Shown one piece after another: positions 5,934 through 43,248 of a DNA stretch of 64,000 nt. The DNA is from Unio delphinus (Eukaryota; Mollusca; Bivalvia; Unionida; Unionidae), in the NCBI GenBank assembly GCA_029339505.1, contig JAQISU010000025.1:2004501-2068500 (forward strand), read 5' to 3'. A program made the position numbers and the translations under genes. The notes below the pieces were generated by a model, which was not told where the DNA came from, did not search any database, and saw only the letters and a list, made by a program, of their open reading frames with translations. Every line of letters begins with the position of its first letter. Position 1 is the first letter of the stretch.

Positions 5934-6611
5934 GTTATCCGATTGAATTGAAAATAAACTTCTAAAGAGATTAAACTGAAATAATTTCTTATAGTGGTAG
6001 TGAAATATTTATATACCTTATCCTGTAATTATTTCCACAGTTGATTATCAATTTGTATTTGATAATTATTTATCTTTTGTTGTTTATTTGTGTGTTTTTT
6101 AAACTACCGGTAGTGTGATTCAATTAATCAAAATATGACTGGTTTCAGCGTTGACATGATTCAAGTATTGTGACAGTTGATAACTTTGAGGAGAAGCCAT
6201 GTCCACTACCATATCTCAGTAAACGATACATCTGAGAGTCGGCATATTTTAGTAAAGTCATTGGCATTGTGCAACAAAAAACAAACAAACCCCTATTATC
6301 CCCGAGGCATTTAACACAGATTAAGCATATGGTAGCTATTGTGCAACACTCTACCGTTGAGAAACCACTTTGCTTTACAAACAACCAATCAACAGTAGTA
6401 TATAAACTGTGGCTTCCTATTACGTCTAAAACACCTATCAATGAAATCCAACAAATCATATTGTTTTACAATTATTCACGCTGGCTCGTATATTGCTATG
6501 TTATTTACCTTTCCTAAGCGTGCGCGCAACAAACCCATATGGAGCCTCTCGCTATTGTTTTTTTAATACTATCGTACATGTATTTCTACTCTCAATAAAA
6601 ATGTTTGTCGC
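5934..6611. other. Non-coding, nothing recognised
   Basis: AT-rich stretch between the pogo relic and the 207-bp repeat unit; the short frames at 6145-6517 show no domain I recognise. Confidence 0.5.
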
Positions 6612-6681
6612 ATATACCTTCAGTATCGTAATTCTTTTTTTTTTACGTAGATTCTTTTCATATTTACACTGAAATAGGCTA
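6612..6681 (+). repeat. Partial 207-bp host tandem repeat unit (left flank of the LINE insertion)
   Basis: Matches 15250-15317 (ATACCTTCAGTATCGTAATT and following). It ends in GAAATAGGCTA (6671-6681), which recurs at 15106-15116. The LINE A plus B unit therefore interrupted this repeat array. Confidence 0.85.
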
Positions 6682-6772
6682 ATTTGACTTATTTACTAAA
6701 CGCTGTGGACATTAGCAATAAAACACTACAAGTACTAGAATTGAGTTGAGAAGTCCACAGTTAAAAAAAAAA

Positions 6773-6814
6773 ATGGCTCGTACCAAGCAAACGGCTCGTA
6801 AATCCACCGGTTGA
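6773..6814 (+). CDS. Histone H3 amino-terminal tail mini-ORF in the LINE leader
   Basis: ATG preceded by a run of A opens 13 codons reading MARTKQTARKSTG, exactly the first 13 residues of histone H3 counting the initiator Met, then TGA. It includes the K4 and K9 contexts (ARTKQ, ARKS). The fragment lies 91 bp inside the left target-site duplication, so it moved with the LINE RNA and is not flanking host DNA. LINE copy C has the same mini-ORF with four synonymous differences. It could be a functional upstream ORF, a fossil of transcription from a histone promoter, or a remnant of insertion in an H3 gene. Function is unknown. Confidence 0.85.
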   Translation: MARTKQTARKSTG

Positions 6815-7123
6815 GTGTTTTATGTGTTTATATATTCATTTTGGATTCATTTTGGATTATATGGTATAGGTAAAAAAAATTTCATTTAGGCCGTGTAGAG
6901 TAGTGCTCACAATTGTGAGTACTGCGAGTACTTTGCTCTAACTTGTTTAGTGCAAGGAGTGAGCGAAATCTCACTTATTTTGACATGCAACCAATTTTTT
7001 GACTGTAATATTTGAATTACAATTAGTTTTTCTAATCTATTTAGCACAAATATCTCACAATTACTTTTTTCAGCACCCCTTTTTTGAATATTTTTGTTGC
7101 AAAATCATTAGGGTCTCTTAAAA

Positions 7124-8569
7124 ATGACAGACAGTGACACTAGCGAAGACATGAACTCAAATGAGACGACTGATAGATATCAATTTCGTGTCAAGGACTT
7201 TTTCCAAACCAAGATGGAAGGTATTGGCAATGAGAGAAAATTATTGATCTATCACCAACAAGGTTGTCAGACGATAGACTTTGGGGACGTTGAGAGGATA
7301 CCCTCCCAGACTGAGGTCTTGACTGCTATGCAGACGCTAGATATCAGTATCGACAAAATTGAGGGACTGCAATATAATGGCCCAAACAAATATATTGTGT
7401 ATACCAAAGATAGGAAAGAACTCTTTTGTCAATCAGAAATCCAAATCATGGGAGTGAGAGCTCAGATATACAGAACACCTCCTATTCAACGGAAACTGCA
7501 AGCGCAGATGGTAGAAGTCACAATATCTGGACTATATCTGGACTACCTCTAGAAGTCAAATCCACAGTTTTCAGAGAAAAGTTGATGTATATGTACAAAA
7601 TCAATCCGGGAGAGGATAAACACCGAAGAGTTTATGGACATTTTGGAGTCTTATCTGGAGAGAGAACCATTATGGTGATGCCGGACGAAGTAAAAAAAAT
7701 CCCGCCTAACTTCTACATTTTAGGATTCTTATGTAAGTCCTGGTATCGTGGGTGTGAACAAAATCGGATCTGCCCAAGATGCAAATGTATAGGGCACGCT
7801 GCCAAAAATTGCACCCAACCCCCACCGCAGCGAGCACAAAATACCTATGCTGCTAAGGCCGCCCAAGGGACCCAAGAAGAGCAAGGACAAATGACGGAGC
7901 AAGGTCAATCAAGTCAATTAGGGATGCCACAGGTAGATAGGGTCCAAGAGGAAATCCCAATTGAAGAACCTTTCACAACTCCAAGGCGTACGGCGAGGAA
8001 AAAGGAGCCACTTGCCCCCCTAAAAACAGCCAATAAATTTGAATGCTTGGCAATTGAGGAAGAAACGGGGGAAGAGGAAGAAATAGATATAAGTGATACA
8101 ACCTCTAGAAGTTTCTCATAAAACATCGACGCCTATGAACAAGAAAAAAGAGAAAAAGAGAAAACAAATTGAAACCTTGACAGACTCCTCCTCCCTAAGT
8201 CAGGGACCAACAACAAACGAGAAACCAAAAAAGAAGGCAAACAAGAAAAAGAAAAAAAAGACAACGCGAGTAATAAACCTTTCGGAAGAATCATCAGTGT
8301 CACTGGAAAAATCTGGAAAAAACGAAACTGAAAACTTGGAAAGGTCCAATGAAACGACACAACCAATCGCACAGAAGGAGGATATGGAAATAGAAATAAC
8401 TGACGGAGAAATACAACGAATGCACCAGGAGACAGAAAGGACTGACGGAACTGACAATAACGAACAAGAACTGTATACAACGACAGAGACAAACGTAAGA
8501 GAGACAATTGACAATAATGAACAAACAAATGGGGGACCTGTGCCCCCAAGACCTTTAGTATCATATTAA
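7124..8569 (+). pseudogene. LINE A ORF1 (RNA-binding, CCHC zinc knuckle), frame broken
   Basis: Product of the nucleocapsid-like ORF1. Starts at MTDSDTSEDM; the frame is lost at a perfect 11-bp tandem duplication (ATATCTGGACT at 7523-7533 and 7534-7544). It continues in a second frame that contains a retroviral-type knuckle (CPRCKCIGHAAKNC, around 7771-7812), then shifts again near 8100 into a Lys/Glu-rich tail ending GGPVPPRPLVSY. The same order, knuckle and GGP-PP ending occur in copy C, which confirms that the three frames are one gene. ORF1 proteins of this class bind element RNA. The terminal tail is highly charged and probably disordered. Confidence 0.85.
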
Positions 8570-8647: not shown

Positions 8648-11600
8648 ATGCCACCTGGACCTAATATGGAGGATATAAACCTCCATATCGCATCTATCAA
8701 CGCAAATGGTTTAGATATGAATAAAATCGCACGCATATTAAAATTACCACAGGAAATAATACTAATACAAGAAACGCACAACAAACTAACACAACAAATG
8801 ATTGGTATACTCGAATCAAAAATGGAAGCAATAGTAGTTAATAGCTTAGCTAAACAAACAGACAAAAAGGCAGGGATTGCGATAATTATAAGAAACACAA
8901 CTAGGCAAAATTGGGAGGAGGTAAAAGTAGATAGTGCCTTGGAAGGGAGGGTACTACATATTAAAAGTAAAAAAATAGATATTATAAACATATATGCTCC
9001 TGCAGAACGAGAACGTCACTTAGACTTTATAAATAATCTAACTAAATACTTAAATACATTTACGGCACAACATCTGATTATGGGGGGAGACTTTAACTGG
9101 GTGGGAGACAGTATAGACCGAACTGGAACCTTTACCACTCACGACTTATATGCAATGGCAACTATGGATAAATTTTTTAAAACCAATAAATTAATAGATG
9201 TGTATAGAAAACTAAATCTATTAAGGACATAATATACACATGAATATGTAGGTAAGGGGAAACATAGGGAAATAAAAGCTAGTAGATTAGATAGATTTTA
9301 TGTTTCAGATTTTGACTATAAAATATACAAAAAAGCTGAAATTTCAGACTTTAAACTTTCGGATCATAAATTAATAATACTAGAAATAGTGATCAAAAGT
9401 AATAGATGGGGAAGGGGAATATGGAAATTAAACAACTCAATTCTTGAAGATGAAGCTCTAATTCAAGAAATAAAAGAAGAAATTCCAAAAATTATACAGA
9501 ACACAATGGAACAAAAAATTGCTGATATAGCATCGGATTGGGATAGTTTAAAAAAGGAGATAAAGAGGATAGCTATATATCACTCAACTAAACAAAAGAA
9601 AATTCAAAATTTGGCGAAAGCGCAATGTAAATATGTGTTAAACTCTGCACACACAACATTGAGGGATAAAGAAAACTGTACTAAATATTTAGAACAGTTA
9701 GAAAATGTAGAAAACAAGGGGAATGAAATAAGGGCGGGAAAATATCACCAAATATATACACAAGCTAGAGAATTATATAAAAGGGAGGAAAAGAAAAATG
9801 GGCAAAACAAAGCACTAGACACCTTAATTAGCAATGGAAAAGAAATAACTACTAAAGCGGAAATTTTGAACGAGGTTAAAAATTGCTATGCAACATTATA
9901 TACCTCTCAATCCATAGACACAGACACGATAACAAACTACTTAAACTCTATACAATGTGAGATGATATCATCGGAACACAAGAAACGGTGTGATGCTTTC
10001 ATCTCTGTGGAAGAAGTGCTATCCACAATTAAAGAACTAGCAAAAAAGAAAGCTCCAGGTAGAGATGGACTCACTGCTGAATTTTATAAAAAATTCAGTA
10101 GTGAAGTGGCACCTATTTTGGCTAATTTATTTAATAACATACTTTTAAAAAATGATAAAATGACAAAAAGCATGAGGGAGGGTATAATTACTATTATATA
10201 TAAAGGGAAAGGGGATAAAAATGATCTAAAAAATTGGAGACCCATCTCTCTCCTAAATACTGATTATAAGATTCTAAGTAGAATTTTAGCTAGGAGGATA
10301 AAAGAAGGTATAGACACCATAGTCGACATTAATCAAACATGCGGCGGCACAAATAGGAGCATACATAACAATATACTAAACATTAGGACAATAATAGATT
10401 TTGTAAAAACCTCAAATCAAAAATGTGCTATGGTACTTTTTGATCAAGAGAAAGCTTTTGATAGACTAGAACCTAATTACACACAAAATGTGCTTGAGAA
10501 ATTTGGATTTGGAATGAACTTTCGAAACTGGACAAAAATCATGTACAATGACATAACTGCTCAGGTACAAATCAACGGAACTGTTACGGAAAAATTCGAC
10601 ATAAATAGGTCAGTGAGGCAAGGCTGCCCACTGTCCATGCTATTATACGTAATAGCAATAGAAATCTTGAGTATTAGGATTAGAAATAACACTAATATAA
10701 AGGGCATAAAAATTCCTAACCTAAGAAGGGAATTTAAAATGCTCCAACATGCTGATGACTGTACAAACTTTATAAATGATCCAAATTCCTTTCAACATCT
10801 AATAAAGGAATATGAAGACTTTGGTAAAGCTTCAGGATCAAAAATTAATCATGACAAAACTGAGATACTATTAATAGGCAACTGGAGGGGAAACCATCCG
10901 GGTTTACCCCCCGACATAATAAAACGAAAGGTCAAAGCCCTAGGGATCTTCTTTGGGGAAAATGAAGAAAAGGAAAATCTAGATAATATAAAAACAAAAG
11001 TAAGGCAAATAATAGATATCTGGGCCCCAGTGCCATTAAGCTTAATAGAACGTTCACAGGTTGCAAAAACTTACATGTACTCAATCCTGGCATACTTAGT
11101 AAACACTGTGGACATAAAAAACAAAACACTAGATACAATAGATAATGAAATCATAAATTATATTTGGGATCAAAAACTACACTACATACAAAAGTCAACA
11201 TTATATAGGTCAAAACAGAAAGGGGGTTTAGCCTTGCCGAATCCTCTTTTAATAAAACAAAAAAGCATTTTAAATAGGTTAAAAGGATAAACAACACACC
11301 CCAAACACCTTGGGAAGCAATATACATATTTTGGTTAGGGATCAGCATGAAACACAGACAGGACATATATAGGAATAATAAATTAGTTAGGACTTTTGAA
11401 CTACCGTCTTCTTACAAGGAAATAAAGGGTTTATTAGTTAAGAATATTAATAATAAAAAACTTTGGGAACAAAGTAGTGATGATACATATGGACTGATTT
11501 TAGAAGAAGAAACCAAAATAAATAAATTAAAGATAGAAAGGGAAAAACCTCACATTAACTGGGATAGGGTTTGGGAAAATTGGAATAAAATTAACTCTTT

Positions 11601-11979
11601 CAAAATACAGAGTATAATTTATACATATATCCACAACGCCTGGCCAACAGGTGAAGTGGCCTACAAACGACGGATGATTAAAAAGCAAATAAATTGCCCA
11701 CTATGCAATAGAGACATGTATACAAAGGACCATGTGATAACTCAATGTGACGAAACAAAGGAAGAGAGAACAAAACTAATTATGGAAATTATTAAGATCG
11801 ACAAATACGACAAACGTCAACTACTCTTCCTAGACGGCAATTTTAATAAAGCTTTGGTTCGACAAATAACAGATTTTATAATAGCGACTTTAATTAAATG
11901 TGGTCCCCTAATGAAGGTTAGGGGTATAATAAATAATTTAAGTAATAGAAATTTTCAAGAAAATTTATATTTGACTTGA
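8648..11979 (+). pseudogene. LINE A ORF2: AP endonuclease + reverse transcriptase + C-terminal zinc knuckle
   Basis: Endonuclease at the start (IASINANG, IQETH, YAPAERERH, MGGDFNWVG, and SDHKLI at about 9358-9378). An in-frame TAA at 9230-9232 interrupts it where copy C has GAA; reading then continues in the same frame to 11290. The reverse transcriptase shows GRDGLTAEFYK, WRPISLLNTDYKIL, DQEKAFDRLE, VRQGCPLS and the catalytic box HADD (in place of the usual Y/F-ADD) near 10750-10762. A frame break near 11290 leads to the last part (11347-11979), with a CPLC-x8-H-x4-C knuckle. The product nicks target DNA and copies its RNA at the site. With only two lesions this copy is fairly young. Confidence 0.93.
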
Positions 11980-13168
11980 ATTTATTTTAAAAGATTTAAA
12001 TTAGACTTATTTTAAGTCTGTTTTGAATTTATTTGAAGTTCAATTCGAATTGAATTAAATTTAATTTAATTTAATTTAAATTGAATTTAAATTTAAGTTT
12101 AAATTAGAATCTAAATTGAGTTTAAATTTGAATTTTGTTTTATTTTGCTTTGTCTTAAATTTTATAAAAAAATTTAATAGAAAAAAAAAAAAAAAAAAGA
12201 TAGAGGGTTTAAAAAAAAGTACATACGAGGACGCTGCAGGGCTATACTACACGGCGCTACGCGAAGTAGGAAGGCCTGCAGAAGAGTGTGGAAAAAGATG
12301 AAAAGAAAAGAAAAAAAAAAGAAAAGAAAAAAGAAAAAAGAAAAAGAAAAAACCCAATGATGGAAATGAATTTATGTAATTTAATTTCATATTTGTATTT
12401 AACAAATTTAAACAAAATTTTTCCTCTAGCTCTCTGGAACCTTTTTCCATACTTTCTCTGTTATGGCTACATCCTATAGTAGCCTTAACCCCCGTATTTA
12501 GGGGAAAATAAACATTTTTCGGCATTTTTGGAATTTTAACCAAATAAATAAATACAAATGGCCGGATAAATTGAGAGAGGAATAGCACAGTCAAATAAAT
12601 TTGTGCGACTTCCTACCTCAAGGAAAACGGACCAACTTTTAATAAATTAACCGAATAGATAAATTGAGACTCACAAAATATTTAAATTCTCGCACCTCAA
12701 TTTATACCAAATTCAAAATTTCAATAATTTAAAAATTTTATATTAACTCGAAATTTTATTGAATAGTAAGACAACTGGGAATGATTTGAATCTACAAGGC
12801 TGTCCTAAACACAAACACAAGTACTTAATAAAAAGTACTCCATACAAAACAGAATAGCATTATACATATAGCATACACCAGGACAATAGGGACCCCTAGC
12901 CAGGGTCGCCCATAAGGAAAGGTCCCTAAAGAGTTTGGGTAGGTCAACTCCCAACTAGAAGGGACTATTAGAATAACACTAAGAATATATAAATACCCCT
13001 TTTCATTTTATAACCCCCTAGGGGGAAAAATTTAGAACTTAAAGAATAAAAATAAAAAAACAACATAAAAAAAATCTGGGGGGAACACACTTACAAATAA
13101 AACTTTTTCAATTTTTTTGATTGGGGGGGGGCATCTGTCTGGTACCCCCCCCCCAAAAAAAAAAAAAT
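11980..13168 (+). other. LINE A 3' untranslated region and tail
   Basis: AT-rich, no coding. Holds a conserved stem-loop (12230-12292), then blocks shared with copies B, C and D: a TTTCCATACTTTCTCTGTTATGG-like stretch near 12450, the GGACAATAGGGACC block near 12881, a G-run/C-run box with GTCTGGTACC near 13137, and a terminal A tract. Confidence 0.8.
12230..12292 (+). promoter_or_regulatory. Conserved LINE 3'-UTR stem-loop (copy A)
   Basis: Left arm CTGCAGG and right arm CCTGCAG pair perfectly around a loop containing GGCGCTACGCGAAGT. In copies C and D the left arm is CCATAGG, with right arm CCTATGG (C) or CCTGTGG (D, one G-U pair). Three base pairs have changed on both sides between A and C. 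This is the place where a LINE reverse transcriptase commonly recognises its own RNA, so a role in priming is inferred. Confidence 0.7.
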
Positions 13169-15105
13169 AAAACACTAGAAAACATTGATAATGAAATAGT
13201 AGGCTACATATGGAATTTCAAGACACATTACAAAAAAAAAATCGACACTATATAGGTCTAAACTAAAGGAGGGATTAGCCTTACCTAATCCCACCCTAAT
13301 AAAATGTAAAAATTTATTAAATAGGTTTTAAAGTTTAGGCAGCACACCACAAACACCTTGGGAAGCACTATACATTTTTTGGTTAGGATTTGGCATGAGA
13401 AACAGACAGGACATATACACAAACAACAAATTGAGTAAGAAAATCGACACACCACACTTATATGGGGGGGGGGGGCTAAAGAAACTTTATATAGGTATAG
13501 GGACTACAAAGAACTATGGGGAATAAGTAAGGATAAGACATATGACTGGATTTGTGATTTAGATGCAACTTCAAGTAAAAATAAAGTAGAGATAGAGAAT
13601 CCACATGTAAATTGGGCTAGGAGGCATTGGTCTGACATCAACTCTCCTAAGGTACAGAGTGTCATCTACACGTACCACCACAACGCCTGGCTTTCGGGCG
13701 AAGTGGCACTTAGAAGACGAATGATTCAGGCCCCTGTTAGCTGCCCTCTATGCAGAAATGCACCGTTCAAAAAAAAACAAAAAAACATACGATGACTCAA
13801 TGTGACAAAACAAAGGAAGAAAGGATCAAACTTTTTATTGAAATAATGAAGGTAGACAAGTACGACAGACGTCAAATACTCTTCCTAGACGGAAACTTTA
13901 ATAAAAACTTAATACGACAAATTACAGACTATATAACGAAGACGTTAATGAAATGTGGACCACTGATAAAGGTTAGGTAAATTTCCTATAATTTAAAAAA
14001 AAATAAATAAACAAACATACAAAACGTTTTCTTTATTTTTTTATTATTTAAAAAAAATAATTATTTATTATTTAAATAATTATTTAAATAATGAAAGATG
14101 CTATATTAGTGTTGTACATTATATAGAATTTAATTATAATACTAAATACCATCTTAATGGGGAAAGTACATTAATGATGACGCAATGGGGCTATATCACA
14201 TGGCGCTACGCGAAGTGAGCAGGCCTATGGAAGAATTTGGAAAATCACCCCATTAGGGTGTTTTATATTTATTTTATACTTTTTTTATTCAGTAAATTTT
14301 AAAAGTTAAAATTAATTTAAATTAGGCACCTCTTCTTCTCTGGATACTATATCCAAACTTTTTTCTTTCATATCGAGATCCCCACTAGACATGATACCCA
14401 TTAAAGGGTAAATTGTGAAAACAAAAGCTTTGGGAAAATTTCTTAGATTAATTAACATAAATAAATAAAAGACGACCCTAATTGAGTCAGAAGCTGTATA
14501 ACCAAATAAATTCGTACAGACCCTTACTCAAGGCAGGCGGACCTAGACTATTAAATATTATTGGAAAGTAAATTGGTGTACATTAAATCTATAATTAAAT
14601 ACACTTCAATTTACACAAAATTCAAAATTGAACTAAAATTTATTAAATAAAAGATTTTACGCGATAACCCATTTACAGAGTTATCAAAAAATAAGACAAA
14701 TGGTGGAAAAATTTGAACGGAAAAGGCTATCCTTACAAAAACACAAAGTATAGACTTATATATAGCAACATACAAATAGCACCAACAAAAAAAGCAAACA
14801 CAAGGACAATAGGGGACCACTAGCCATGGTCAAATGATAAAATAAAGTGGAATACTAATTTGGGCAGGTCTATTCCCATCTAGTAATGTCCTACTTAAAT
14901 AACACTAGGGAAAGAAAAAATACCCCTTTTCAAACATATAATCCCGATGGGAAAAATTAAATGGGGACTTAAATGGAAAAATAAAAAACTTTCAACAACA
15001 TATCAGGGGGGAACAAACATAAACATAAAACCTATTTTTTACCTTTTTTATGATGGGGATGGGGTGGGGGGCACATGTCTGGTGCCCCAAAAAGAAAAAA
15101 AAAAA
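13169..15105 (+). mobile_element. LINE copy B, 5'-truncated, in tandem behind copy A
   Basis: Begins directly after the A-run of copy A, inside the carboxy-terminal third of ORF2 (homologous to the NKTLDTIDNEIINYIW region of A). It runs through the zinc-knuckle end (broken; one readable piece at 13750-13980) and the 3' untranslated region, and finishes with GTCTGGTGCCCC plus A-rich tail at 15080-15105. It abuts the right copy of the duplication GAAATAGGCTA. Either B inserted into the A tail of copy A, or both were made in one event by template switching. Confidence 0.88.
14178..14235 (+). promoter_or_regulatory. Conserved LINE 3'-UTR stem-loop (copy B)
   Basis: Left arm CAATGGG, right arm CCTATGG; one mismatch and one G-U pair, same loop core GGCGCTACGCGAAGTGAGC. 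Decayed version of the element seen in copies A, C and D. Confidence 0.6.
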
Positions 15106-15460
15106 GAAATAGGCTAGCGTGCATTTCTACAAAACCGTAGAGTTTAATTATTACTGATTAGCTGAGGGTTAAATACTTGACTAGAGATTATTAATATGGC
15201 GGTTCTTTTGGAAAATGCACGTATTTCCGAAGTTCAAATAACACGTATGACTGTATACCTTCAGTATCGTAATTCTTTTATTTTTTACGTAGATTCTTTT
15301 CATATTTACACTGAAATGAACCAGCGTGCATTTCTACGAAACCGTAGTTTAATGATCACTGATTAGCTAAGGGTTAAATACTTGAATAGAGATTACTAAT
15401 ATGGCGGTTCTTTTGTAAAATACACGTATTTGCGTCGTTCAAATAGCAGGTATGGCTGTA
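15106..15460 (+). repeat. Host tandem repeat, period 207 bp, right flank of LINE insertion
   Basis: AGCGTGCATTTCTAC occurs at 15116 and 15323, with the intervening sequence conserved (for example GATTAGCTGAGGGTTAAATA). The second unit reads ACTGAAATGAACCAGCGTGC where the interrupted unit reads ACTGAAATAGGCTA / GAAATAGGCTAGCGTGC. It therefore serves as a paralogous empty site for the LINE insertion. 15460-15767 holds nothing else recognised except TAAGCCGACCC and a possible pogo terminus. Confidence 0.85.
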
Positions 15461-15767
15461 TTATCTGGTGGATGGACATCTGTCAAATAGATGTCAAGTA
15501 CGTTAAAACACGTTTTTCATTCATTATCCTACCACTTAAATTAGAAAAAAATATGTTTTACTTCACGACAGGACAAATCTTATCAGCCATGTGGCATCAT
15601 TAGGCATGTGATCTCATATTCGGCGATCGCCGGAAACAATAAATATTGGAAATCGAGGGGAAAAAACATTATAAATTTCAGATTTGGAACTTGACCTGCA
15701 GATAAGCCGACCCCCCCCCCTTCTTCCATATCTTATATTTTTCCTAAATTTCTCGTCTTATACACGA

Positions 15768-18354: not shown

Positions 18355-18732
18355 AGCAGCAGAGAGGGTGAACCCTACAACGTTTTGAGACAAAATTTGA
18401 TTGAAATCCTTAAAACGAGCCTTCCTACGATCTCATTTTAACCAAAAAGAGGGTGAACCCTACAACGTTTTCAGACAAAATTTTGATTGAAATCTTAAAA
18501 CGAGCCTTCCTACGATCTCATTTTAACCAAAAAAAATGTCTCAGGGGAAAACCCTACAACGTTTTCAGACAAAAAATTTATTGAAATCTTAATGAGCTTT
18601 CCCTACGAAATCTCATTTTAACTAAAAAAATGAAAACGGAGACTTTTACGATTTTTTAATCAATTTTGGTCGCAACTTGTTGTTATCCACCCTCTCTGCT
18701 GCTACAGGTTAACAAAAAATAAGAAATGATTT
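18355..18732 (+). repeat. P1 left terminal inverted repeat
   Basis: About 378 bp, matching 33684-34060 in inverse orientation. It holds three imperfect tandem units (spacing about 85 and 94 bp) with the shared core ACCCTACAACGTTTT-AGACAAA. Its inner edge (18688-18703, CACCCTCTCTGCTGCT) is the inverse of its own outer edge, so the repeat itself has inverted ends. Confidence 0.95.
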
Positions 18733-18773
18733 GATCCAGTCTTTATGATGAAAGTCCTTAGGACGAAAATCAT

Positions 18774-20123
18774 TTATGATTTCACAAACAGACTAATCGC
18801 TAACACCTCTTCTTGTAAATCAATCAGATTATTAGATTGGTCTGTGAGTTTGAAATTAATTCTCGTTAACGAATTATTATGGCATCGCATGTAGACAGGA
18901 TTAATTGGGTTTTCAATAATTAGGAATCCTGGAGGAGCTGTTGGTGCAAATGAATAAAGAATATATCCCTGCTGAGCTTGATTTGATTGCTCTAGATTAA
19001 TCTGATAGCTTCCTTCAATTACATCACATACTAAATTAAGCGCAATCACCGTTGAAATATTCACGTTGAACGGAGCGATATGCCTACCACCACCATCTGG
19101 ATCATTATTATGTTTGAGAAGGACAGTTGAATCTGATTTTTTTAGCGCTTTGATATCGGTTTTAACAATTCTTGCTAATTCATCAGCGTTGTATTTCGGA
19201 AACTTGAAATTACGCAGATTGTCTTCTGTGATATTGTAATCGGTTAGGAATCGTTGTTTATTGTCGCTGTTGTCATTAATTATTGTTTGAATAATTAGTT
19301 CATAGATATATTCCATGTCGGATATAAGTTGATTTATTATTTCAACGTGTTTTTGCGATTTTGTTTTCCGTAGTTGTTCTAGTTGTGTGTCATATAATTG
19401 TTTAATCTCATTAAAATAACCACGGACGTCAGTTAGCGTAAATGAAATAGTAACAGATGAGTCGGTTGTTCTTTTAATGATAAAATCCCATTGCAATGTG
19501 TCTTTGTTGGTGAATATAAATCTATCGGCGATTTTTCCTTTTCTTATATCAGATAAATCATCTCGATAACTGGGATTAATTTCATGATATGATTGTACAT
19601 CCGTGGTTAAGTCGGTGGTGGATTTTTCCGGTGGTAATTCAGGCCATCCTAGTACGGTTCTAATAGAACTTTGATAGATATCTACGACGTATCCTTCCGT
19701 GCTTATCTCAATTGCGGATGATAGTGTCGGCTCATGAACTGTTATAGCGATTTTTGATTCTTTTCCAGTAATCGATTTTATTCTACGCGCGAATTCATTA
19801 TTGATTTGTTCAATTTGGTATGATCCGGTTGGTATCGAAACGACGTTCCAGTCTGGGGTTCCGTCGGGTTTATTCTTATTTGCAAACACTAAAGAATTAT
19901 TGGGTTGTTGACCACCAAATGATTTTGATCTGATATTAGGCCAACTGTGATACACTCGTAGTTTTGCTAGCGCTATCTCCTTCACGGGGACTGGGCTAGG
20001 GAAATTCACACTAAACTCGGGTTCCGTTGATGTTATTGATATCATACTTGTTTGTACTGGGTTCGTGTTCTCCACTACTCGTTGAAGTAATTCCATCGGT
20101 GTCGTCATTGTTATTATACTCAT
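18774..20123 (-). CDS. Putative minor capsid (penton-like) protein, 449 aa
   Basis: Last gene before the left inverted repeat. Recognisable stretches are LAKLRVYHSWPNI with SFGGQQPNNSLVF near residues 55-80, IPTGSYQIEQINNEF near 100, a charged coiled-coil-like middle (about 230-300), and a beta-rich end with LTRINFKLTDQSNNLIDLQEE. The same kind of ending (LTDQ-N-LIDL-E) and the GSYQIEQIN motif are, as far as I remember, typical of the second structural protein of Polintons/adintoviruses, thought to form pentons. The assignment is by resemblance, not proof. Start: MSIITMTTPME, conserved in P2. The gene overlaps a tandem duplication of its own start region (20124-20340). Confidence 0.6.
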   Translation of the reverse strand: MSIITMTTPMELLQRVVENTNPVQTSMISITSTEPEFSVNFPSPVPVKEIALAKLRVYHSWPNIRSKSFGGQQPNNSLVFANKNKPDGTPDWNVVSIPTGSYQIEQINNEFARRIKSITGKESKIAITVHEPTLSSAIEISTEGYVVDIYQSSIRTVLGWPELPPEKSTTDLTTDVQSYHEINPSYRDDLSDIRKGKIADRFIFTNKDTLQWDFIIKRTTDSSVTISFTLTDVRGYFNEIKQLYDTQLEQLRKTKSQKHVEIINQLISDMEYIYELIIQTIINDNSDNKQRFLTDYNITEDNLRNFKFPKYNADELARIVKTDIKALKKSDSTVLLKHNNDPDGGGRHIAPFNVNISTVIALNLVCDVIEGSYQINLEQSNQAQQGYILYSFAPTAPPGFLIIENPINPVYMRCHNNSLTRINFKLTDQSNNLIDLQEEVLAISLFVKS

Positions 20124-20274
20124 GTTGTCGCTCTAATTTTGACACCGCGGAATCATAAATACTGACCATCACTGAGAACTCACAATTTGGTATGGTTGAG
20201 GTTATTGAGATCATTCTGGTTTTTGGGTTCGTGTTTTCTAATTCCATCGGTGTTGTCATTGTTATTATATTCAT
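20011..20274 (-). CDS. Small overlapping ORF produced by a 151-bp junction duplication
   Basis: Starts MNIITMTTPMELENTNPK like the penton-like gene and continues with VSIYDSAVSKLERQHEYNNND like the end of the 181-aa gene upstream. The DNA segment containing the end of one gene and the start of the next is duplicated in tandem with a period of 151 bp (GTTGTCGCTCTAATT at 20124 and 20275). 151 is not a multiple of three, which is why this frame fuses the two. P2 keeps an equivalent frame (49957-50295). Translation is uncertain. Confidence 0.4.
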   Translation of the reverse strand: MNIITMTTPMELENTNPKTRMISITSTIPNCEFSVMVSIYDSAVSKLERQHEYNNNDDTDGITSTSSGEHEPSTNKYDINNINGTRV

Positions 20275-20725
20275 GTTGTCGCTCTAATTTCGATATCGCG
20301 GAATCAAAAATACTGACCATCGCTGAGAATTCACTATCTGATATAATTGTATTATCGAGTGACGACGATATCATCAGGGATAACTGCGAATATGCGGTTG
20401 ATGCAATATGAAATTGAATTAAGTAATTCTGCAGTTTACTCTGGCTGCATGATGATATCTTTTTTGCTATCCCGGTTGATATACCCCCGATTGTAGCCAC
20501 CGCAGAAATGCAAATTGGAACTACGACCGGGGCAATCATTGTAACAGATGCTAGTATTATTCCGGCACCAGTGAGAACGCTTGACACCGAGTACACAGTA
20601 ATATCAATTGCGGTGATTCTTCGTCGGTATTTTTTTATTTTTATTTGATACTCCTCGGCGAGGGTTTTGAGTCTAGTTTGAAATTCTCTGACCTGATCAT
20701 AGCGACATTGCGTTGATGAAATCAT
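20180..20725 (-). CDS. Small membrane protein, 181 aa, function unknown
   Basis: A basic amphipathic amino end (residues 1-38, with KIKKYRRR) precedes two hydrophobic helices (about 40-62 and 66-86, rich in Val, Ile, Ala, Gly), then a polar tail. This looks like a membrane hairpin with the amino terminus inside. In P2 the tail stops earlier (165 aa) because a GAA codon is TAA, so the last residues are not constrained. I do not recognise the family. Its place among virion genes suggests a virion or membrane-interaction role, but that is inference only. Confidence 0.6.
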   Translation of the reverse strand: MISSTQCRYDQVREFQTRLKTLAEEYQIKIKKYRRRITAIDITVYSVSSVLTGAGIILASVTMIAPVVVPICISAVATIGGISTGIAKKISSCSQSKLQNYLIQFHIASTAYSQLSLMISSSLDNTIISDSEFSAMVSIFDSAISKLERQHEYNNNDNTDGIRKHEPKNQNDLNNLNHTKL

Positions 20726-20735
20726 TTTTATTTTA

Positions 20736-20802
20736 AAAACGCTAGCGTTTTCAATTGTGAAATCTAAAGGATTTTCCTTTCAATTGAAACCACTAGTGGT
20801 TT
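20736..20802. repeat. Two palindromes between membrane-protein and fibre-like genes
   Basis: AAAACGCTAGCGTTTT at 20736-20751 and AAACCACTAGTGGTTT at 20787-20802. Both belong to the palindrome family scattered in P1/P2; the corresponding site of P2 has a mutated first copy and a different palindrome (AAATCGTAACGATTT at 50781-50795). Confidence 0.85.
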
Positions 20803-20804
20803 TA

Positions 20805-22219
20805 TTATTTACTTAAATCCGCTGCGAATTCTAAGCACCAGGTGATTTCTTTTCGAATGGTGTTATCAACCGCGACAATCTCAAATTATTCTTCACCCCG
20901 GATAATTACTGTTGCGGTGCCACCAAAGTAGGTTTTACCGCTTACGATGATATCAAATTGCTTGTTAGAGATTAACGTCATCCTGTAGATACCATGAGGC
21001 CACTTCTCGATATTGACTTTCAATTTAGCATTAGATTATTTTACCCAATCAAAGGTCCCATGCTTTACCCTTTCAGAGGTTTCTTTTAGTTTAAGAATAT
21101 CGTAGTAAACGTCGATATAGGTTTTATTGATTTCGGTATATTTCATCATCGTTCCATCGCGGCGTTTAAAAAATGAAATCAAAAGGAAGTCGGCTCCAAT
21201 GCCCGTTAAGGTTAGATAATTCCCGTTGAGTTGAGAATATGTCGTCGTGATATTGTAGCTTTCAGAGCCCTCAAAGAAATTTTTAACCATTTTGCTGATG
21301 CGTATTTGTTCGTCAACCGCGCTTTTAATTTCAGCGAGAGTCGGGCCTGTCAACGATGTGGTTTCAGATTCATCACGTGTTCTCCACAAAAATCTATCCA
21401 CGATGGTATTAAGTGTTGTTTGTCTCACCATAAACCTAATAATATCGTTGAGAGTCATCGTAGATGTAGCGGGGACACCAAAGAAATTATTAGCGACGTG
21501 GGCATTGTGAGTATGCCTGATAATAAACTCGCTGATTTCAGCGAGAGTCGAGTCTGCCATAGGTGGGGATCCAAAAAACCTAACAATGACGTCGTTAGTG
21601 GGTTTTTGTACCCGCTCAACATTTTCTATTATTTTAGAAATATCATTGTAAATCTCGAGATAATTTGCCTTGATTTCATTTTCATTCATCATCCTTCCCG
21701 CGTCCTTGTTAAAAAAGAAAATTTTTGCGAAAAACTGAAAACTGTTTTCCGTGTTCTTCAATTTTAGATTGAAGTGTTGCTAGTTCTAACAGAGAATTAT
21801 CCAACTCATGGTCGTGGGCGGCAATCTTGTCGGTGATCGTAGACACAAGTGCACCTGGTTTAAGTCGTCCGTCGTTGGAATACAACGCAATAGAGTTTTC
21901 AGTGGCGTCTTGCTGCCGTTTTAAAATGTCATCCGCGGATATATTACTGGCTTTAAGTCGTCCGTCGTTGGAATACAGCGCAATAGAGTTTTCAGCGGCG
22001 TCGCGCTGCCGTATCAAAATGTCATTCAATGACACATCACTGGATTTCAATTTACCCTGTTTGTCTTGAAATACAACTATTTCATTAGGATCAACATTTG
22101 TTAAGTTCAACGTCTCAGCGATTTCATCTTCAATTATTTTTTTTTATATCCTTGACAGAATCAGGTGGTGCAGTGCCATCGGGTTTGGGTTTCAAAGTTC
22201 TGCCCCAAATATCAATCAT
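20805..22219 (-). pseudogene. Fibre-like repeat protein gene, broken copy
   Basis: Counterpart of the intact 450-aa gene of P2 (50794-52146). Lesions seen by comparison: a run of nine T at 22137-22145 where P2 has eight, which shifts the frame shortly after the start; a deletion of the first FFG-repeat around 21725; a nonsense codon (TAA for GAA) at about 21036; and a changed carboxy end. P1 also has an extra 29-residue unit of the DILxRQxDAxENSIALYSNDGRLK repeat (21830-22030), i.e. two where P2 has one. Two separate readable pieces remain. Confidence 0.8.
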
Positions 22220-22243
22220 GTTATTGTAAAACTCTTTCTCTCT

Positions 22244-22699
22244 CTAAAATCGTTTTTGACGACTTCGTTGAAAAATCTTCGATTTTCTCCAGCGATTACT
22301 AGTGTATTCATTCACGACAACATGTGGTGGTTTTCCGCTTGGGTTACTCAAGGAGTTAGAAATAGCGTTAAGGACATTTAATACTTCGCTGCCACATATT
22401 GGTGGGTCATTCATTTGTTGTGTTGGTAGCGTAGAATACCAAGTCTTCATTGAAAATTTTTTTATATAACGCATAAATTCTTTTGGCGGTAATAATCCAT
22501 ATGAATCAAAATAGACAATCCCACGTGGATCAATAGCGTATGCAACCCAGTGAGTTCCAGGTCCGGTGCTGTTATCTAAATTAATGATTCCGGTTTCAGT
22601 GTTGTTTGGTTGATGTGGTAATGGATCTTTCATAAAGACACCTCTGAAGTTTTTAATCGCTAGTTTTTTAGCAGCATCGAGTAAATCAAAATTGGACAT
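22244..22699 (-). CDS. Adenain-type cysteine protease (virion maturation), 151 aa
   Basis: Catalytic residues of the adenovirus protease fold are in order from the ATG at 22699: His50 in GTHWVAYAID, Asp65 in IVYFDSYG, Gln at 94/95 (LPTQQ), Cys102 in PPICGSEVLNVL. The amino end (MSNFDLLDAAKK, NFRGVF) is also as expected for Polinton proteases. Family role: cleaving capsid-associated precursors during virion maturation. Upstream codons in the same frame (to 22765) overlap the preceding gene and are probably not translated. It is intact here and frameshifted in P2. Confidence 0.92.
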   Translation of the reverse strand: MSNFDLLDAAKKLAIKNFRGVFMKDPLPHQPNNTETGIINLDNSTGPGTHWVAYAIDPRGIVYFDSYGLLPPKEFMRYIKKFSMKTWYSTLPTQQMNDPPICGSEVLNVLNAISNSLSNPSGKPPHVVVNEYTSNRWRKSKIFQRSRQKRF

Positions 22700-22722
22700 G
22701 GGAACCATCATAGACTCTCCAA

Positions 22723-23184
22723 TTAATAAACCGGTCCTAGTCTTATACCCTTTCCGCTGTACCACGAATACGGGGTTCCTGGTAGTCTTAGACCCTTTCC
22801 CTTTTTTTTATATCCTTTCCCAGTTGCTTTCTTTAGTGCCATTCCTGCTGCAGTACCAACGGCTCCTAACGCTGCCGCTTTAGCCACCGCTGGGGCTGCT
22901 GCTGCAATCAATGCTGGAATCGCAGCTAACAACGGAAATATACCGCCTGTTTTAATCATATTTTTGATAGCAGCCGCAGAAAGAGTAATCTGAACACCTT
23001 TTTTGGCTGCAAGTGCATCATTGAAATGTTTTATTTGACGAGTTGTCAGTGATAATTTATTTGCACCACCAGTCATTTGGTTGGGTTTCAACGTGATTGT
23101 GGTTCCACATTTTTTAGCTGATTCCGATTGCAATTTTTTTAATTGACCGGGAGTTAACGCAACACTAATAGTACTATATGACAT
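22723..23184 (-). CDS. Hydrophobic/basic minor virion protein with C-terminal repeat
   Basis: Three parts: two copies of a short alpha-beta motif (VALTPGQLKKLQSESAKKCG and related SLTTRQIKHFNDALAAKKGVQITLS), an Ala/Gly/Ile-rich hydrophobic stretch (about 85-120), and a basic Gly/Lys tail with GLRLPGTPYSWYSGKG. In P2 the tail repeat is present twice plus a partial copy. Similar proteins occur in many invertebrate Polintons and I regard it as a core- or membrane-associated virion protein, analogous to adenovirus pX or pVI. Start chosen at MSYS, conserved in both copies; an in-frame ATG lies three codons upstream. Lies between protease and capsid genes, in the same orientation. Confidence 0.6.
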   Translation of the reverse strand: MSYSTISVALTPGQLKKLQSESAKKCGTTITLKPNQMTGGANKLSLTTRQIKHFNDALAAKKGVQITLSAAAIKNMIKTGGIFPLLAAIPALIAAAAPAVAKAAALGAVGTAAGMALKKATGKGYKKKGKGLRLPGTPYSWYSGKGIRLGPVY

Positions 23185-23226
23185 GTTATACATAATTGAT
23201 TGATTCTAAATCGTTGACAATTTCAA

Positions 23227-24639
23227 TTACATGTTTTCCACTGGTGCATCTACCACTCTCATTCTTCCACCAACACCTTCAAGTAGCATTGATTTATCAC
23301 TGAGAATGACAGCAACCGCTCTATAATCAGCAATACCACCACGAGTCACATTAGCTCTAAAATGTATATCAACAACAGATTGTCTCATCAAATCGAGATG
23401 TTCCAGTGAGAAGTAATAGATCGGATACAGATTTTTAAAATCATATTGTGATATTTGCAAACCAGTATCGACATTTTGATCGCGTGCCATAAATGACAAC
23501 AGACGATGATAAACTCGTGCAATATGATTTTCTGTGTAATTAAGCTGTATATCCTCGGATGGTTCCTGTTGGCCGTTTATTCTCAGTGAGACGTCTTTCA
23601 CACCTAATTGATCAAATATCATATGACTGAAACGTTGATCGCCAACTCGTGTGTTATCCTGTAACGCAATAAATATATGACGTGGCGCAGAAACGCCTTG
23701 TTTTGATGCTAGATTCCACGTGAATAACCCGTTCAGATTTGATTGCTTCACATCTGTACTCACGGTTAGCCAACTCAACAACGACTTTCCTCCTTGGTCC
23801 ATAAATGATAGTAATCGTTCTTCTGCGGTGATTGCTGGAGTCAACACTGGCATCCACAATGATATTTTTGTTAAATTGACTTTACCGGCATCAGCATTTG
23901 GATTTGCATTGTCTGCTGGAATCCTCCAGATTGCGTCACTATCATCACTCTTTCGTACAAGCGATACTGTATGCTTCGCTCCATAAATAACTTTTCGAAC
24001 GTTTCTACAGAATCCAAATATATGATGCAGTGGAATAGCGCATGAAAATGATTTACGCGCTCCTTGCAACATTGAAATACGTGTTGCAGCTCCTAGATTG
24101 AAATTAACATCGTTGTTTATAATCATATCTTCGGCATCAATATTAGCGGTGCCAGCATTATTCTTTGGTCGTCTTACAACAAATTGTTTTCCTCCAGCGG
24201 TATTTGTAGCATCTTTTGCAAACATCATAGAGGGTCCTGCTGATCTTGTATAATCATCGGAATATCTCGCTAACCCGATTATTGTTGTAGCCACATCAAC
24301 ATCACGATCTATGGACTCAATTTCTTTTCCATCAATGAGATATCTAGCACTCTCAAATAACGCCATGATACCATTATTGACAAAACCGACTTGAGTACCA
24401 GCTGGACACGGTGCTGGTACAGCAGGAGTATCATCAGCTGTTACAAGTTCTCCTTCGATTTCGATAAACGCTTCACAAGGCAAAAAGTATTTACTGGTAT
24501 CATGGACTTGAAGATCAATTCTTGCTCGACTATTTGAGTCTATTGCATGATAGGCGTAATATTGATAATCGCGTACAGAATCATCCTTGCCAACTGGAGC
24601 GTCTATATCAAATGCTGGATCATGTGACTTTTTGAACAT
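23227..24639 (-). CDS. Major capsid protein, double jelly-roll type, 470 aa
   Basis: Central structural gene. Recognisable blocks: SRARIDLQVHDTSKYFLPCEAFIEIEGEL (beta strands near 30-65, shown here only in part by residues SRARI and FIEIEGEL), NNGIMALFESARYLIDGKEIESID (about 90-113), ARYSDDY, FSCAIPLHHIFGF, and near the end YFSLEHLDL with VDIHFRANVT. These are typical of the Polinton/adintovirus hexon-like capsid protein, whose trimers make the icosahedral shell. Length fits the family. Start MFKKSHDPAFDID is the same in P2. No lesions seen in either copy. Fold assignment is from sequence resemblance only. Confidence 0.85.
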   Translation of the reverse strand: MFKKSHDPAFDIDAPVGKDDSVRDYQYYAYHAIDSNSRARIDLQVHDTSKYFLPCEAFIEIEGELVTADDTPAVPAPCPAGTQVGFVNNGIMALFESARYLIDGKEIESIDRDVDVATTIIGLARYSDDYTRSAGPSMMFAKDATNTAGGKQFVVRRPKNNAGTANIDAEDMIINNDVNFNLGAATRISMLQGARKSFSCAIPLHHIFGFCRNVRKVIYGAKHTVSLVRKSDDSDAIWRIPADNANPNADAGKVNLTKISLWMPVLTPAITAEERLLSFMDQGGKSLLSWLTVSTDVKQSNLNGLFTWNLASKQGVSAPRHIFIALQDNTRVGDQRFSHMIFDQLGVKDVSLRINGQQEPSEDIQLNYTENHIARVYHRLLSFMARDQNVDTGLQISQYDFKNLYPIYYFSLEHLDLMRQSVVDIHFRANVTRGGIADYRAVAVILSDKSMLLEGVGGRMRVVDAPVENM

Positions 24640-24680
24640 TTTATTCTATTTATCAGAGTCTAAATCGCGATTTTCCATTT

Positions 24681-25130
24681 TCATTGTCGTATTTTTTTAA
24701 AGCCACTTCCTGCTATCATATTTGCAATATTGCTTTGGTCGGGGGTTAAAACCATCGACGCTAATTTTTCATCTACTGCGTTATTTATAATTCTACTAAC
24801 ACTTGCAGGCATTTCCGCTGTAGACGGTAACGGTTTTGAAAATCTTTTGGATTTCATCCGTGATTTCACTAATGATGTTAATTTATTCTTCGCAGTTGAA
24901 AACGCTTTTCCAGCAAGATCTCCAACAGCACCAATACCCTTATCACGAATAACTTCAATTGCTTTCATTCCTAATTGTTTAGCCAACGGCATCACTTTTG
25001 GAGCCATTCTCGCAAATAACCCTAAAATGGTATTACCTAAACCATCTCCGTAGTATGCTCTATAAACCGGAAACCGTGAATTAACTACGTAGACGGGGGT
25101 TGGTTTATCATGATTGTAGTGTATGATCAT
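24681..25130 (-). CDS. pVI-like minor capsid protein, 149 aa (putative)
   Basis: Amino end with a short Tyr/Pro-rich region and a GDGLGN motif, then an amphipathic region (GLFARMAPKVMPLAKQ, about 37-60), Gly/Ala helices, a basic patch (KSRMKSKRFSK) and a carboxy end with NNAVDEKLASM. Layout recalls the adenovirus pVI precursor, which has a membrane-active amphipathic helix and protease sites; GLGN and GSGF could be cleavage positions but I cannot verify them. Directly downstream of the 289-aa gene and upstream of the capsid gene. In P2 the basic patch is shorter. Confidence 0.5.
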   Translation of the reverse strand: MIIHYNHDKPTPVYVVNSRFPVYRAYYGDGLGNTILGLFARMAPKVMPLAKQLGMKAIEVIRDKGIGAVGDLAGKAFSTAKNKLTSLVKSRMKSKRFSKPLPSTAEMPASVSRIINNAVDEKLASMVLTPDQSNIANMIAGSGFKKIRQ

Positions 25131-25189
25131 TATTTGAAATCAGAAACAATTTTTCAATTGTTATTTATCTAATCAATTGACTTTTCAAT

Positions 25190-26059
25190 TCAGTCACTAT
25201 GATATCCACTTTCCACTAACTCTCCAATGAAATCTCGATATGTGCTGATATCCATGATACCACCCTGAAATAATCGTCTACAGATATCAGCTGCTTCATT
25301 AATTATTTCCGGTGAGTTATTTCCGGCTCGGAACCCTCCTACAAGAACCTCTAATCGTGATATATCACTGAGAACACTACCAGGACATGAAACGCTAGCG
25401 TTTCCAACTAGACCACTCCCCAGAAATTTCTTCTCATCGTATGGCTGTCTTATTTGGAGTTGAAATTTTCTCTTGAAGTCTCTGTATTCCTTCATCCTTC
25501 TATCTAAACTCCCAGTATTTATTTCATACACTATATCAGCCCATTCATTATGTGACATTCTATAATCCGAATAATTGTCCGTGAAAAACTTCTCTTGTGA
25601 ATCATAGCTGTTAGCAGCGAATTCACCTAAATTGTCTATATCCTCGTTGAGAATTTGTTGTTTAGCGCTCTCGGTAAATATAATTGATTTAGGTAGTCCA
25701 CTAACTAGTTCTTCCTGAAATCCTTTAAATTTTCGTTTCGAAGCGGTTGATATGTCCTGAGGAAGTGATTGCAAGGATTTTTTTGTTTGTTTAGTTCTTT
25801 TTGCTATTTTTTCTAACACAAGAATAAGACCCTCTTCTTTTCTTTTACCGTCAGGATCATCTCCCAGTATAGCACGCTCTATCTCCTTCGTTGCTGTGGT
25901 TACTGGTTTAAACAATTCTTCAGATCCCGCAGCAAAATCAGTCTGAAGACTCTGTCGTTGTTGTAGTTTATTCCGTACAGAGTCACGAATTGGTACAAAT
26001 CTCTTGATTGCATCCAGTCGTTCACGAGTCAATCGGGTTGTTAATGCTTCATTGACCAT
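25190..26059 (-). CDS. Conserved structural-block protein, 289 aa, function unknown
   Basis: Predominantly charged and helical; Lys/Arg/Gln-rich first half (coiled-coil-like, about 40-110), and a better conserved carboxy end, SRLEVLVGGFRAGNNSPEIINEAADICRRLF. I remember similar carboxy ends (AGN--PE--NE---I---L) from other invertebrate Polintons, but no function. Residues 219-224 are GNASVS, encoded by the palindrome at 25389-25404; P2 shares this insertion. Both copies are intact, arguing that the gene is needed. Confidence 0.6.
   Translation of the reverse strand: MVNEALTTRLTRERLDAIKRFVPIRDSVRNKLQQRQSLQTDFAAGSEELFKPVTTATKEIERAILGDDPDGKRKEEGLILVLEKIAKRTKQTKKSLQSLPQDISTASKRKFKGFQEELVSGLPKSIIFTESAKQQILNEDIDNLGEFAANSYDSQEKFFTDNYSDYRMSHNEWADIVYEINTGSLDRRMKEYRDFKRKFQLQIRQPYDEKKFLGSGLVGNASVSCPGSVLSDISRLEVLVGGFRAGNNSPEIINEAADICRRLFQGGIMDISTYRDFIGELVESGYHSD
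25389..25404. repeat. In-frame palindrome GAAACGCTAGCGTTTC
   Basis: Perfect 16-bp palindrome inside the 289-aa gene, encoding the NASVS core. Present at the same position in P2 (55326-55341), so it predates the split of the two copies. Confidence 0.95.
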
Positions 26060-26502
26060 TATTTGAAATCAGAAACAATTTTTCAATTGCAAAACACTTT
26101 TTCAATTGTGAAACAATTTTCCCGAACCCGACATAACACCATCGTGGAAGTGTTAAGGGCGTTATCATTGATGTTGAAAGTGTCATAATTGCTATAAAAA
26201 TAATTAATATCACACTTTCAACATTTTATGACATGTCGGATGAGTTTTAATACCACCGTGGAAGTGTTATGTCATCGTGAGACACCTTCTATCAGGTATG
26301 TGGAAAGTGTGGAAATCCTTATAAAAATAATTAATACCACACTTTCCACATTGTTGTTTTTATTGATCAATCTGAACCGTCCATCAATTTTTATTCAGTG
26401 TGAAATATTTTCACTGTTTTTGACATTATCAATCAAAAAATGCTAAAAAAAATTAAAATCTCTATGAGGGACGGTCACAATCAAATAATGATAAATGGTC
26501 AA
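26060..26502. promoter_or_regulatory. Intergenic region with duplicated hairpin and TATA-like blocks
   Basis: About 440 bp without a gene. Two related blocks each contain TATAAAAATAATTAATA (26191 and 26321) framed by an inverted repeat: GAAAGTGT with ACACTTTC in the first, GGAAAGTGTGG with CCACACTTTCC in the second. The block ACACCATCGTGGAAGTGTTA / ACCACCGTGGAAGTGTTA is also duplicated. P2 lacks almost all of this and has three 26-bp repeats instead (56105-56165), so it is not essential for the element. Probably a regulatory or parasitic insertion; function unknown. Confidence 0.5.
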
Positions 26503-26904
26503 TCAAAATTGTTCATTTTCTTGAATTAACGCCCGTAGGTTTCTAACTTTAGAATTAACCACCTTTTTCAATTCGTATTCGTACCCCAATTCCTTTCGTA
26601 TTCGTTCTACGATGGTATACAACGGAGCGAACACACTTACGTCACTGGAAAATGCGAGAGAGTCCCGAATAGAATTCTGAATTCTCTTGATGAGCGCATA
26701 CTTCTTTGGTAGCATATATTTATTGTTGTTAACTCCGTATTCAATATCCTGAAAATCAGACATGATTTGATCAGGATTTAACCCATCTGATAGTTCAATA
26801 TCCCAACTTTTCAATTTTGAAATCTCGGATAAAATGCTATTCATGTTTTCAGAATTCATTATTCTATAATAATGATATATTTCTAAATGAAAAATATGAC
26901 GCAT
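26503..26904 (-). CDS. Small conserved protein, 118-133 aa, function unknown
   Basis: Mostly helical and charged, with no domain I recognise: SEISKLKSWDIELSDGL, MLPKKYALIKRIQNSI and a carboxy end of KVRNLRALIQENEQF. Two candidate starts: the ATG at 26904 (133 aa, overlapping the end of the HNH gene) and the ATG at 26859 (MNSENMNS, 118 aa), which avoids the overlap and seems likelier. The P2 copy differs at only a few residues and is intact. Confidence 0.55.
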   Translation of the reverse strand: MRHIFHLEIYHYYRIMNSENMNSILSEISKLKSWDIELSDGLNPDQIMSDFQDIEYGVNNNKYMLPKKYALIKRIQNSIRDSLAFSSDVSVFAPLYTIVERIRKELGYEYELKKVVNSKVRNLRALIQENEQF

Positions 26905-27398: not shown

Positions 27399-27412
27399 TC
27401 GTATACATAATA

Positions 27413-27754: not shown

Positions 27755-27817
27755 AAGCCACTTTCAGTGATTCATTATATATAAATCTTTCATTTAAATG
27801 CTTGTTTTAATTATAGC
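27755..27817. promoter_or_regulatory. Divergent promoter region, zinc-finger gene / polymerase
   Basis: The 63 bp between the two start codons contain TATATATAAATC (27775-27786), a plausible TATA box for the rightward polymerase gene about 30 bp before its ATG. It is nearly identical in P2 (57453-57515). Its reverse strand is also TATA-like, so it may serve both directions. Confidence 0.5.
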
Positions 27818-32485: not shown

Positions 32486-32489
32486 ATTA

Positions 32490-33007: not shown

Positions 33008-33012
33008 AATTT

Positions 33013-34060: not shown

Positions 34061-34066
34061 TTCTTG

Positions 34067-43240: not shown

Positions 43241-43248
43241 AAAAAAAA

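Follow-up and report, generated by a model that had tools for sequence, protein, structure and literature searches.

R2, the LINE of the 28S rDNA, encodes a restriction-like endonuclease and has a single ORF. It is without a promoter of its own, and its transcript is freed from that of the 28S gene by a ribozyme, as described in PMC8789037. The APE-type Tx1 clade also includes target-specific members, such as Keno in the U2 snRNA genes, and Utopia elements combine variable 5' boundaries and occasional tandem insertions with families that weakly prefer U2-like sequences (both according to an excerpt of PMC4640811); L1-Tx1 elements are common in molluscs (excerpt of PMC10294476). The homes named for target-specific LINEs in these portions of the literature are rRNA genes, small nuclear RNA genes and simple repeats. 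No LINE targeting histone H3 was found in our literature search, and in the available part of PMC6934838 H3 appears only in the role of FISH controls. Here we analyze a 64,000-nt stretch of the Unio delphinus genome (the window), in which two LINEs, copies A and C, begin with the start of a histone H3 gene, together with their relatives across the genome. We put at about 0.7 the probability that these LINEs prefer one site inside H3 genes and are driven by the H3 promoter, the majority of the surviving copies lying off target.

The H3-derived stretch in copies A and C comprises 13 codons and the H3 5' leader, to which copy C adds the H3 TATA box (window features are on the plus strand unless otherwise indicated). 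The mini-ORF of copy A occupies 6773-6814, with its ATG at 6773, the 13 codons of MARTKQTARKSTG (6773-6811) and TGA at 6812-6814, and is preceded at 6744-6772 by the host H3 5' untranslated leader with its A-tract; comparison by blastn with the array histone unit L028 aligns unit positions 1755-1823 with window positions 6744-6810 at 95.7% identity, the leader thus starting at H3-unit position 1755. The mini-ORF of copy C (43249-43293) has its ATG at 43249 and encodes the same peptide plus Leu in 14 codons, MARTKQTARKSTGL (43249-43290, with MARTKQTARKSTG at 43249-43287), before TAA at 43291-43293; an H3 promoter piece with TATAAA and 5' leader forms the front of this element at 43173-43248 (blastn L028 1713-1824 against window 43173-43287, 89.6%). 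All 13 residues are identical to those of H3 (tblastn within the window, E 0.005-0.006), the ATG stands in the strong start context AAAATGG in both copies, and the four differences between the two sets of 13 codons are all silent, the bodies of the two elements being 73.8% identical over the blastn pieces. The sequence-only reading of the window, which had reported the peptide in both copies and its silent changes, was accurate on these points. By eye, an inverted 13-nt copy of an H3 leader segment, ATTCTAGTACTTG, can be seen at the 5' end of copy A (6729-6741, minus strand), looking as if a cDNA end had folded back.

Copy A sits in the ORF2 of an outer, 5'-truncated LINE, D, the frame of which is continuous over the site when the flanks of A are joined. 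The 5' part of LINE D, an ORF2 fragment interrupted by copy A, spans 6682-6728 and its 3' part 13178-15105, with its own 3' end at 15071-15105. The repeat GAAATAGGCTA (6671-6681 and 15106-15116), previously read as the target-site duplication of copy A, belongs to this outer element and is ruled out for A, which has its own duplication, AATAAAACACTA, at 6717-6728 inside the ORF2 of D and again at 13166-13177, where the first A is possibly part of the tail. A separate duplication, GCAATACCATG, likewise flanks copy C, at 43162-43172 and, just past the window end, at 64615-64625 (L029); this copy therefore does not lie within an H3 gene, and a genuine H3 gene in its flanks is ruled out. The earlier claim that the H3 fragment travels with the element holds. 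A paralogous empty site had been suggested at about 15309-15330, a region in which we find a repeat (15116-15256 and 15323-15461) of 88.7% identity.

Copy A further contains an ORF1 region with a broken frame (7124-8121), in which a CX2CX4HX4C zinc knuckle was recognized by eye and Pfam gave no match to it, the reverse transcriptase (RT) part of ORF2 (9389-11290; Pfam RVT_1, E 5e-31), a C-terminal zinc-binding part of ORF2 (11347-11979; zf-RVT, Pfam) and a 3' end in which the hairpin motif GCATCTGTCTGGTACC is followed by a run of C residues and an A tail (13131-13165). Copy C has an open ORF1 of 384 aa (43534-44688), again with a zinc knuckle recognized by eye, and an ORF2 region with a broken frame and an RT (45027-48296, 73.7% identical to A 8649-11922). 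Outside the H3 finding, a Maverick-like viral element (48516-63743, no strand assigned) splits the 3' part of copy C, and a related one (18355-34061) lies in LINE B, which extends on the minus strand from 16529 to about 37608, is 5'-truncated within ORF1 and is flanked by TAGATGGCTG, a target-site duplication identified by eye. Both viral elements encode a double jelly roll capsid protein, an integrase, an A32-like ATPase and a helicase; the dispersed locus L021 shows a similar capsid and integrase after its ORF1, and it is possible that Maverick-like elements prefer LINEs of this clade. Scans of viral contigs revealed no relatives of the RT, the H3 start pattern or the capsid protein. Copies B and D, being 5'-truncated, are uninformative on the presence of the leader.

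A search of the 2.5-Gb genome with 201 bases around the mini-ORF returned 308 candidates, 40 of which were scored. Of these, 21 are H3 genes belonging to arrays on eight contigs; the remainder consists of copy A and 18 additional dispersed loci. All 18 additional loci, each of which was fetched, carry the H3 leader and mini-ORF ahead of a LINE ORF1, so that full-length copies without the fragment were not encountered, although this count is biased because the query held the H3 piece and LINEs of the clade without it would escape. An ORF2 match is present in 15 of the 18. Three of these loci (L009-L011, on contig C45) are a single LINE locus repeated about 52 kb apart by segmental duplication, which leaves 16 distinct loci in addition to A and C; L010 and L011 were left out of the leader, insertion-site, start-point and tree comparisons as duplicates of L009. 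Body identity among copies with ORF2 is 73-99%. A second ORF1 lineage (L019, L021 and L024) has an ORF1 only about 27-31% identical to that of C and a body identity of 67%, taken from short pieces in L021 and L024; in its three members neither a 3' end motif nor an ORF2 match was found within the 10 kb fetched, and they are absent from the junction test and the tree. In L019, a 442-aa ORF1 (6433-7761, minus strand) ends in an A-rich poly-lysine stretch. The 10 kb fetched for this locus yielded no ORF2 of the clade, and the locus perhaps records an H3-led transcript cut off early after ORF1.

The ORF2 of these elements combines an APE endonuclease (Exo_endo_phos, E 2.8e-6 in L018 and 7.3e-9 in L026) with an RT (RVT_1, E 4e-31 and 5.5e-11, respectively), as is characteristic of APE LINEs of the L1/Tx1 group, and the best PDB matches are L1 endonucleases and L1 ORF2p. 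On these matches they are taken to be L1-type LINEs, presumably of the Tx1 clade, in which we place them by the resemblance of their RT motifs. A protein search with the ORF1 of C yielded no match at E 0.001 among 1786 candidates, and one with the RT yielded 1371 matches, few of them named among the best 120.

The histone genes of the host are arranged in tandem, each unit of about 6.94 kb having H1, H3, H4, H2B and H2A all on one strand; among the named matches listed, the H1 protein is closest to those of the bivalves Mytilus, Saccostrea and Crassostrea, with gastropods lower, which by itself indicates a mollusc host, probably a bivalve. Array unit L028 has TATAAA at 1729 and the H3 ATG at 1786, and the piece carried by the LINEs corresponds to the host H3 gene from the transcription start region, its position estimated from the TATA box, to codon 12-13. 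The 5' ends cluster at H3-unit position 1755 or 1741, downstream of TATAAA: A, L012, L013, L016 and L021-L025 start at 1755 give or take a few bases, and the H3 part begins at 1741 in L009, L014, L018 and L026, and near 1747 in L019 and L020, where some of it is possibly chance flank, while small insertions leave the start point of L015 unfixed. The H3 part of L017 (from 1723) and that of C (from 1713) include the TATA box; starting upstream of it, these two copies are most easily explained by a parent located at an H3 promoter. At its other end the H3 part stops at TCCACNG, beyond which each family has its own sequence, with a reading frame that is closed by a stop codon after 13-20 codons in all 20 rows compared, C-terminal peptide residues that vary among families and a first ORF1-like frame 147-370 nt downstream of the mini-ORF ATG. 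TCCACCG (TCCAACG in L020) is followed in L014, L016 and L020 by AAACGGCARGGAAATACATG, which looks as if the H3 target stretch had been repeated in altered form. Frameshifts were observed in three of the nine array H3 genes of one set that was read (L030, L033 and L038), none of them due to a LINE; these genes are either pseudogenes or assembly errors.

The 3' ends of the elements, marked by the motif CATCTGTCTGGTGCC, comprise a hairpin motif followed by a run of C residues and an A tail, and the sequence beyond the tail is readable in 15 copies. The H3 gene at the target reads CTCGTAAATCCACGGGAGG. The A-tail of L012 and L014 is followed by GTAAATCAACTG, which continues into the leader and ORF1 of another LINE. 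The same 12 bases also stand directly before the H3 leader of L014, forming a 12-bp target-site duplication, and its H3 part stops where this duplication stops; L012 occupies the same site in a similar LINE but lacks a duplication, and at its joint the sequences overlap briefly (TTGAG). The tails of L017 and L020 are followed by GGAAATCCACCGG and GTAAATCCACCGG, respectively, with another LINE after each, and L017 has a single H3 leader, located 5' of the inner element, which would fit a 5' joint closed on homology. Compared with shuffled sequences, the match to the H3 site has p values of 0.017 (L012), 0.007 (L014) and 0.0025 (L017), and was reached by 0 of 2000 shuffles for L020 (uncorrected, 15 tests). 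Four of the 15 readable 3' junctions lie at GTAAATCCACNG or a near copy of it, repeated insertion at one sequence being a defining trait of target-specific LINEs. In the copies seen, H3 thus ends at, or next to, the distal edge of a target site into which some of the elements still insert. L021 (5' flank only) and L025, which belong to different ORF1 lineages, are both inserted at TTGTAAAYCCAG, a look-alike of the H3 site, in one repeated sequence, seen in two copies, and the match of L025 to the H3 site is borderline (p 0.065). We take this repeat to resemble half a tRNA-Thr gene; it was not called as a tRNA, and ARAGORN and Rfam gave nothing.

Counting against a preference for the H3 site, H3-likeness is absent from the insertion site in 10 of the 15 readable junctions (p > 0.2); as judged by eye, A, C, L009, L013, L015, L016, L022 and L023 have unrelated duplications of their own. 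None of the 25 array H3 genes judged, out of 27 known, is interrupted by a LINE: 18 were read at the site (one in L027, two in L028, nine in L030-L038 and six in L039-L044) and seven were judged by the regular spacing to the next unit (six in C403 and one in C200), the last units of C403 and C200 being the two that were not judged. A genome-wide search for five A residues directly preceding H3 codons 9-15, two mismatches being tolerated, returned no matches, and copies inside the multicopy target gene, a further trait of target-specific LINEs, were thus not seen among these genes. H3 insertions may be missing from the assembly due to collapsed or purged array copies, or H3 genes may be visited rarely, the leaders having been acquired some time ago. 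The sequence-only reading had listed H3 genes as a preferred landing site among its alternatives; this fits the data best, with the amendment that most of the copies observed lie off target and have taken the H3 start along.

Relative to host H3, the first 36 coding bases show 0-2 changes in 15 of the 18 distinct copies, four in C and L013 and five in L015, and the 16 noncoding bases that precede the A-tract are unchanged in 11 of the 18, with one change in four of them and two in L013; C and L015 have small insertions within the noncoding leader, for which a gapless comparison overcounts their differences. Despite body differences that reach about 27%, 15 of the 18 distinct copies keep a near-host leader, noncoding part included. 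Five family representatives (A, L014, L018, L023 and L026), whose bodies are 75-86% identical, i.e. 14-25% apart, present 0-2 differences at 27 positions that are either noncoding or third in a codon, against the 4-7 predicted from the body rate; by simple product, the chance of zero differences at 27 positions is 0.0004-0.002 for 75-80% identity. Copy C differs from these five at 9-11 of the 27 positions, a figure overcounted by an indel, and the leaders of C, L013 and L015 are clearly unlike array H3, which counts against the H3-site reading.

These data bear directly on the proposal that the silent changes reflect protein-level selection on a histone mimic, that is, a peptide with the H3K4/K9 context acting on chromatin readers or writers. 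The ratio of 23 silent to 4 replacement changes in the 36 nt relative to host H3 (18 non-independent rows, counted base by base, which gives L015 two replacements though one residue differs), the four silent and zero replacement changes of C, and the strong start context would all be in keeping with such a peptide. However, a source H3 gene itself under protein selection gives the same silent bias, and the changes in C would fit a second host H3 gene as its source. A selected peptide would let the noncoding leader and the third positions drift, and protein selection is therefore disfavored by an untranslated leader that is as conserved as the codons; replacements in L013, L015 and L020, a changed residue 13 in L014, L016 and L020, and C-terminal residues that differ by family also speak against it. 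There is no need to invoke selection for a histone mimic, and on leader conservation and the family-specific peptide ends we have set it aside as the main cause, judging it very improbable.

An H3 start captured only once, long ago, is harder to dismiss. Kept by descent, it would serve as an internal promoter (start site and downstream element) and as a target-matching leader, H3 genes not being used today. Such a capture would account for a piece that is found at the same place in every fetched copy, always with a stop before ORF1, and for the failure to find an interrupted H3 gene. It would also suit ACCGG, which most families have in place of the ACGGG of array genes: the ACNGG character requires only two changes on the RT tree (L020 left unscored) and therefore counts for descent, lowering our confidence in the H3-site reading. 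The final leader bases may thus be inherited, or another H3 gene may be their source. On the other hand, the noncoding and third positions are nearly unchanged though the bodies of the five families are 14-25% apart, L025, L026 and L021 carry the host ACGGG, the junction shifts by a few bases among families, and the TATA region is present in C and L017. Moreover, the leader occurs as AAGTCC, AAGTCT or AAGTGT, and the first two are each common to several families, AAGTCT being found in L009, L012 and L023 and even in L024, of the second ORF1 lineage. Mapped on a tree built from 15 RT regions, the AAGT[CTG] character requires six changes, the most that these labels allow on any tree, and this variant does not follow the LINE tree. 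Descent from one ancient capture consequently strikes us as unlikely, and the leader pattern is that given by renewal from host H3 genes, with the last bases perhaps from the element. Template switching, in which the RT, on finishing the cDNA, would jump from the LINE RNA to an H3 mRNA and so add the H3 5' end, explains both the ends at the H3 start and the identity with host H3, but it needs a jump at codon 12-13 in all copies seen, leaves aside that the same sequence serves as an insertion target and conflicts with C and L017, which hold sequence upstream of the expected mRNA start; we give it hardly any credence.

In the H3-site reading, an L1/Tx1-type endonuclease would prefer the CTC/GTAAATCCACNGG boundary in the H3 coding region, at codons 9-13, with a bottom-strand nick between CTC and GTAAATCC. 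An element landing in an H3 gene would come under the H3 promoter, which would transcribe the H3 leader, codons 1-13 and the LINE as one RNA to be copied to new sites. At another H3 or H3-like site the leader would be absorbed by homology, as L017 suggests, and promoter and leader would be renewed from the host; at an unrelated site the H3 leader would arrive as a passenger. The 13-codon ORF would then be an upstream ORF left over from the site; it is probably translated, but its peptide would not be the reason for its retention. It seems somewhat more plausible than its opposite that a whole LINE group, including two strongly diverged ORF1 lineages, lives on replication-dependent H3 genes in this way, cutting at codons 9-13, taking the H3 promoter, renewing its leader at each visit and thereby coupling its expression to S phase.

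Should this be the case, a protein-coding, S-phase-regulated gene family could serve as a LINE home site, a natural endonuclease aimed at H3 would exist, and the promoter problem of LINEs would have been solved by borrowing and renewing a host promoter. H3 start fragments of this kind should, with due caution, not be taken for histone mimics. In the proposed reading, the H3-led LINEs would resemble R2 in having a multicopy host gene as home and in being transcribed from a host promoter; they differ from it by their L1-type APE endonuclease, two ORFs, a protein-coding target and many off-target copies, and they were seen in 0 of the 25 judged array target genes. Membership among gene-targeting LINEs so far fails on one defining feature, copies within the gene, whereas the likeness in working that we propose is independent of such copies. 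With Utopia they share variable 5' boundaries, occasional tandem insertions and a weak target preference, and they differ from it in that Utopia has a restriction-like endonuclease and another target. The Tx1 clade is similar in its APE endonuclease type, our putative assignment being made from RT motifs and best PDB matches to L1. Whereas the targets given for that clade in the excerpt of PMC4640811 are rRNA genes, small RNA genes and repeats, that of the H3-led LINEs would be a site in histone H3.
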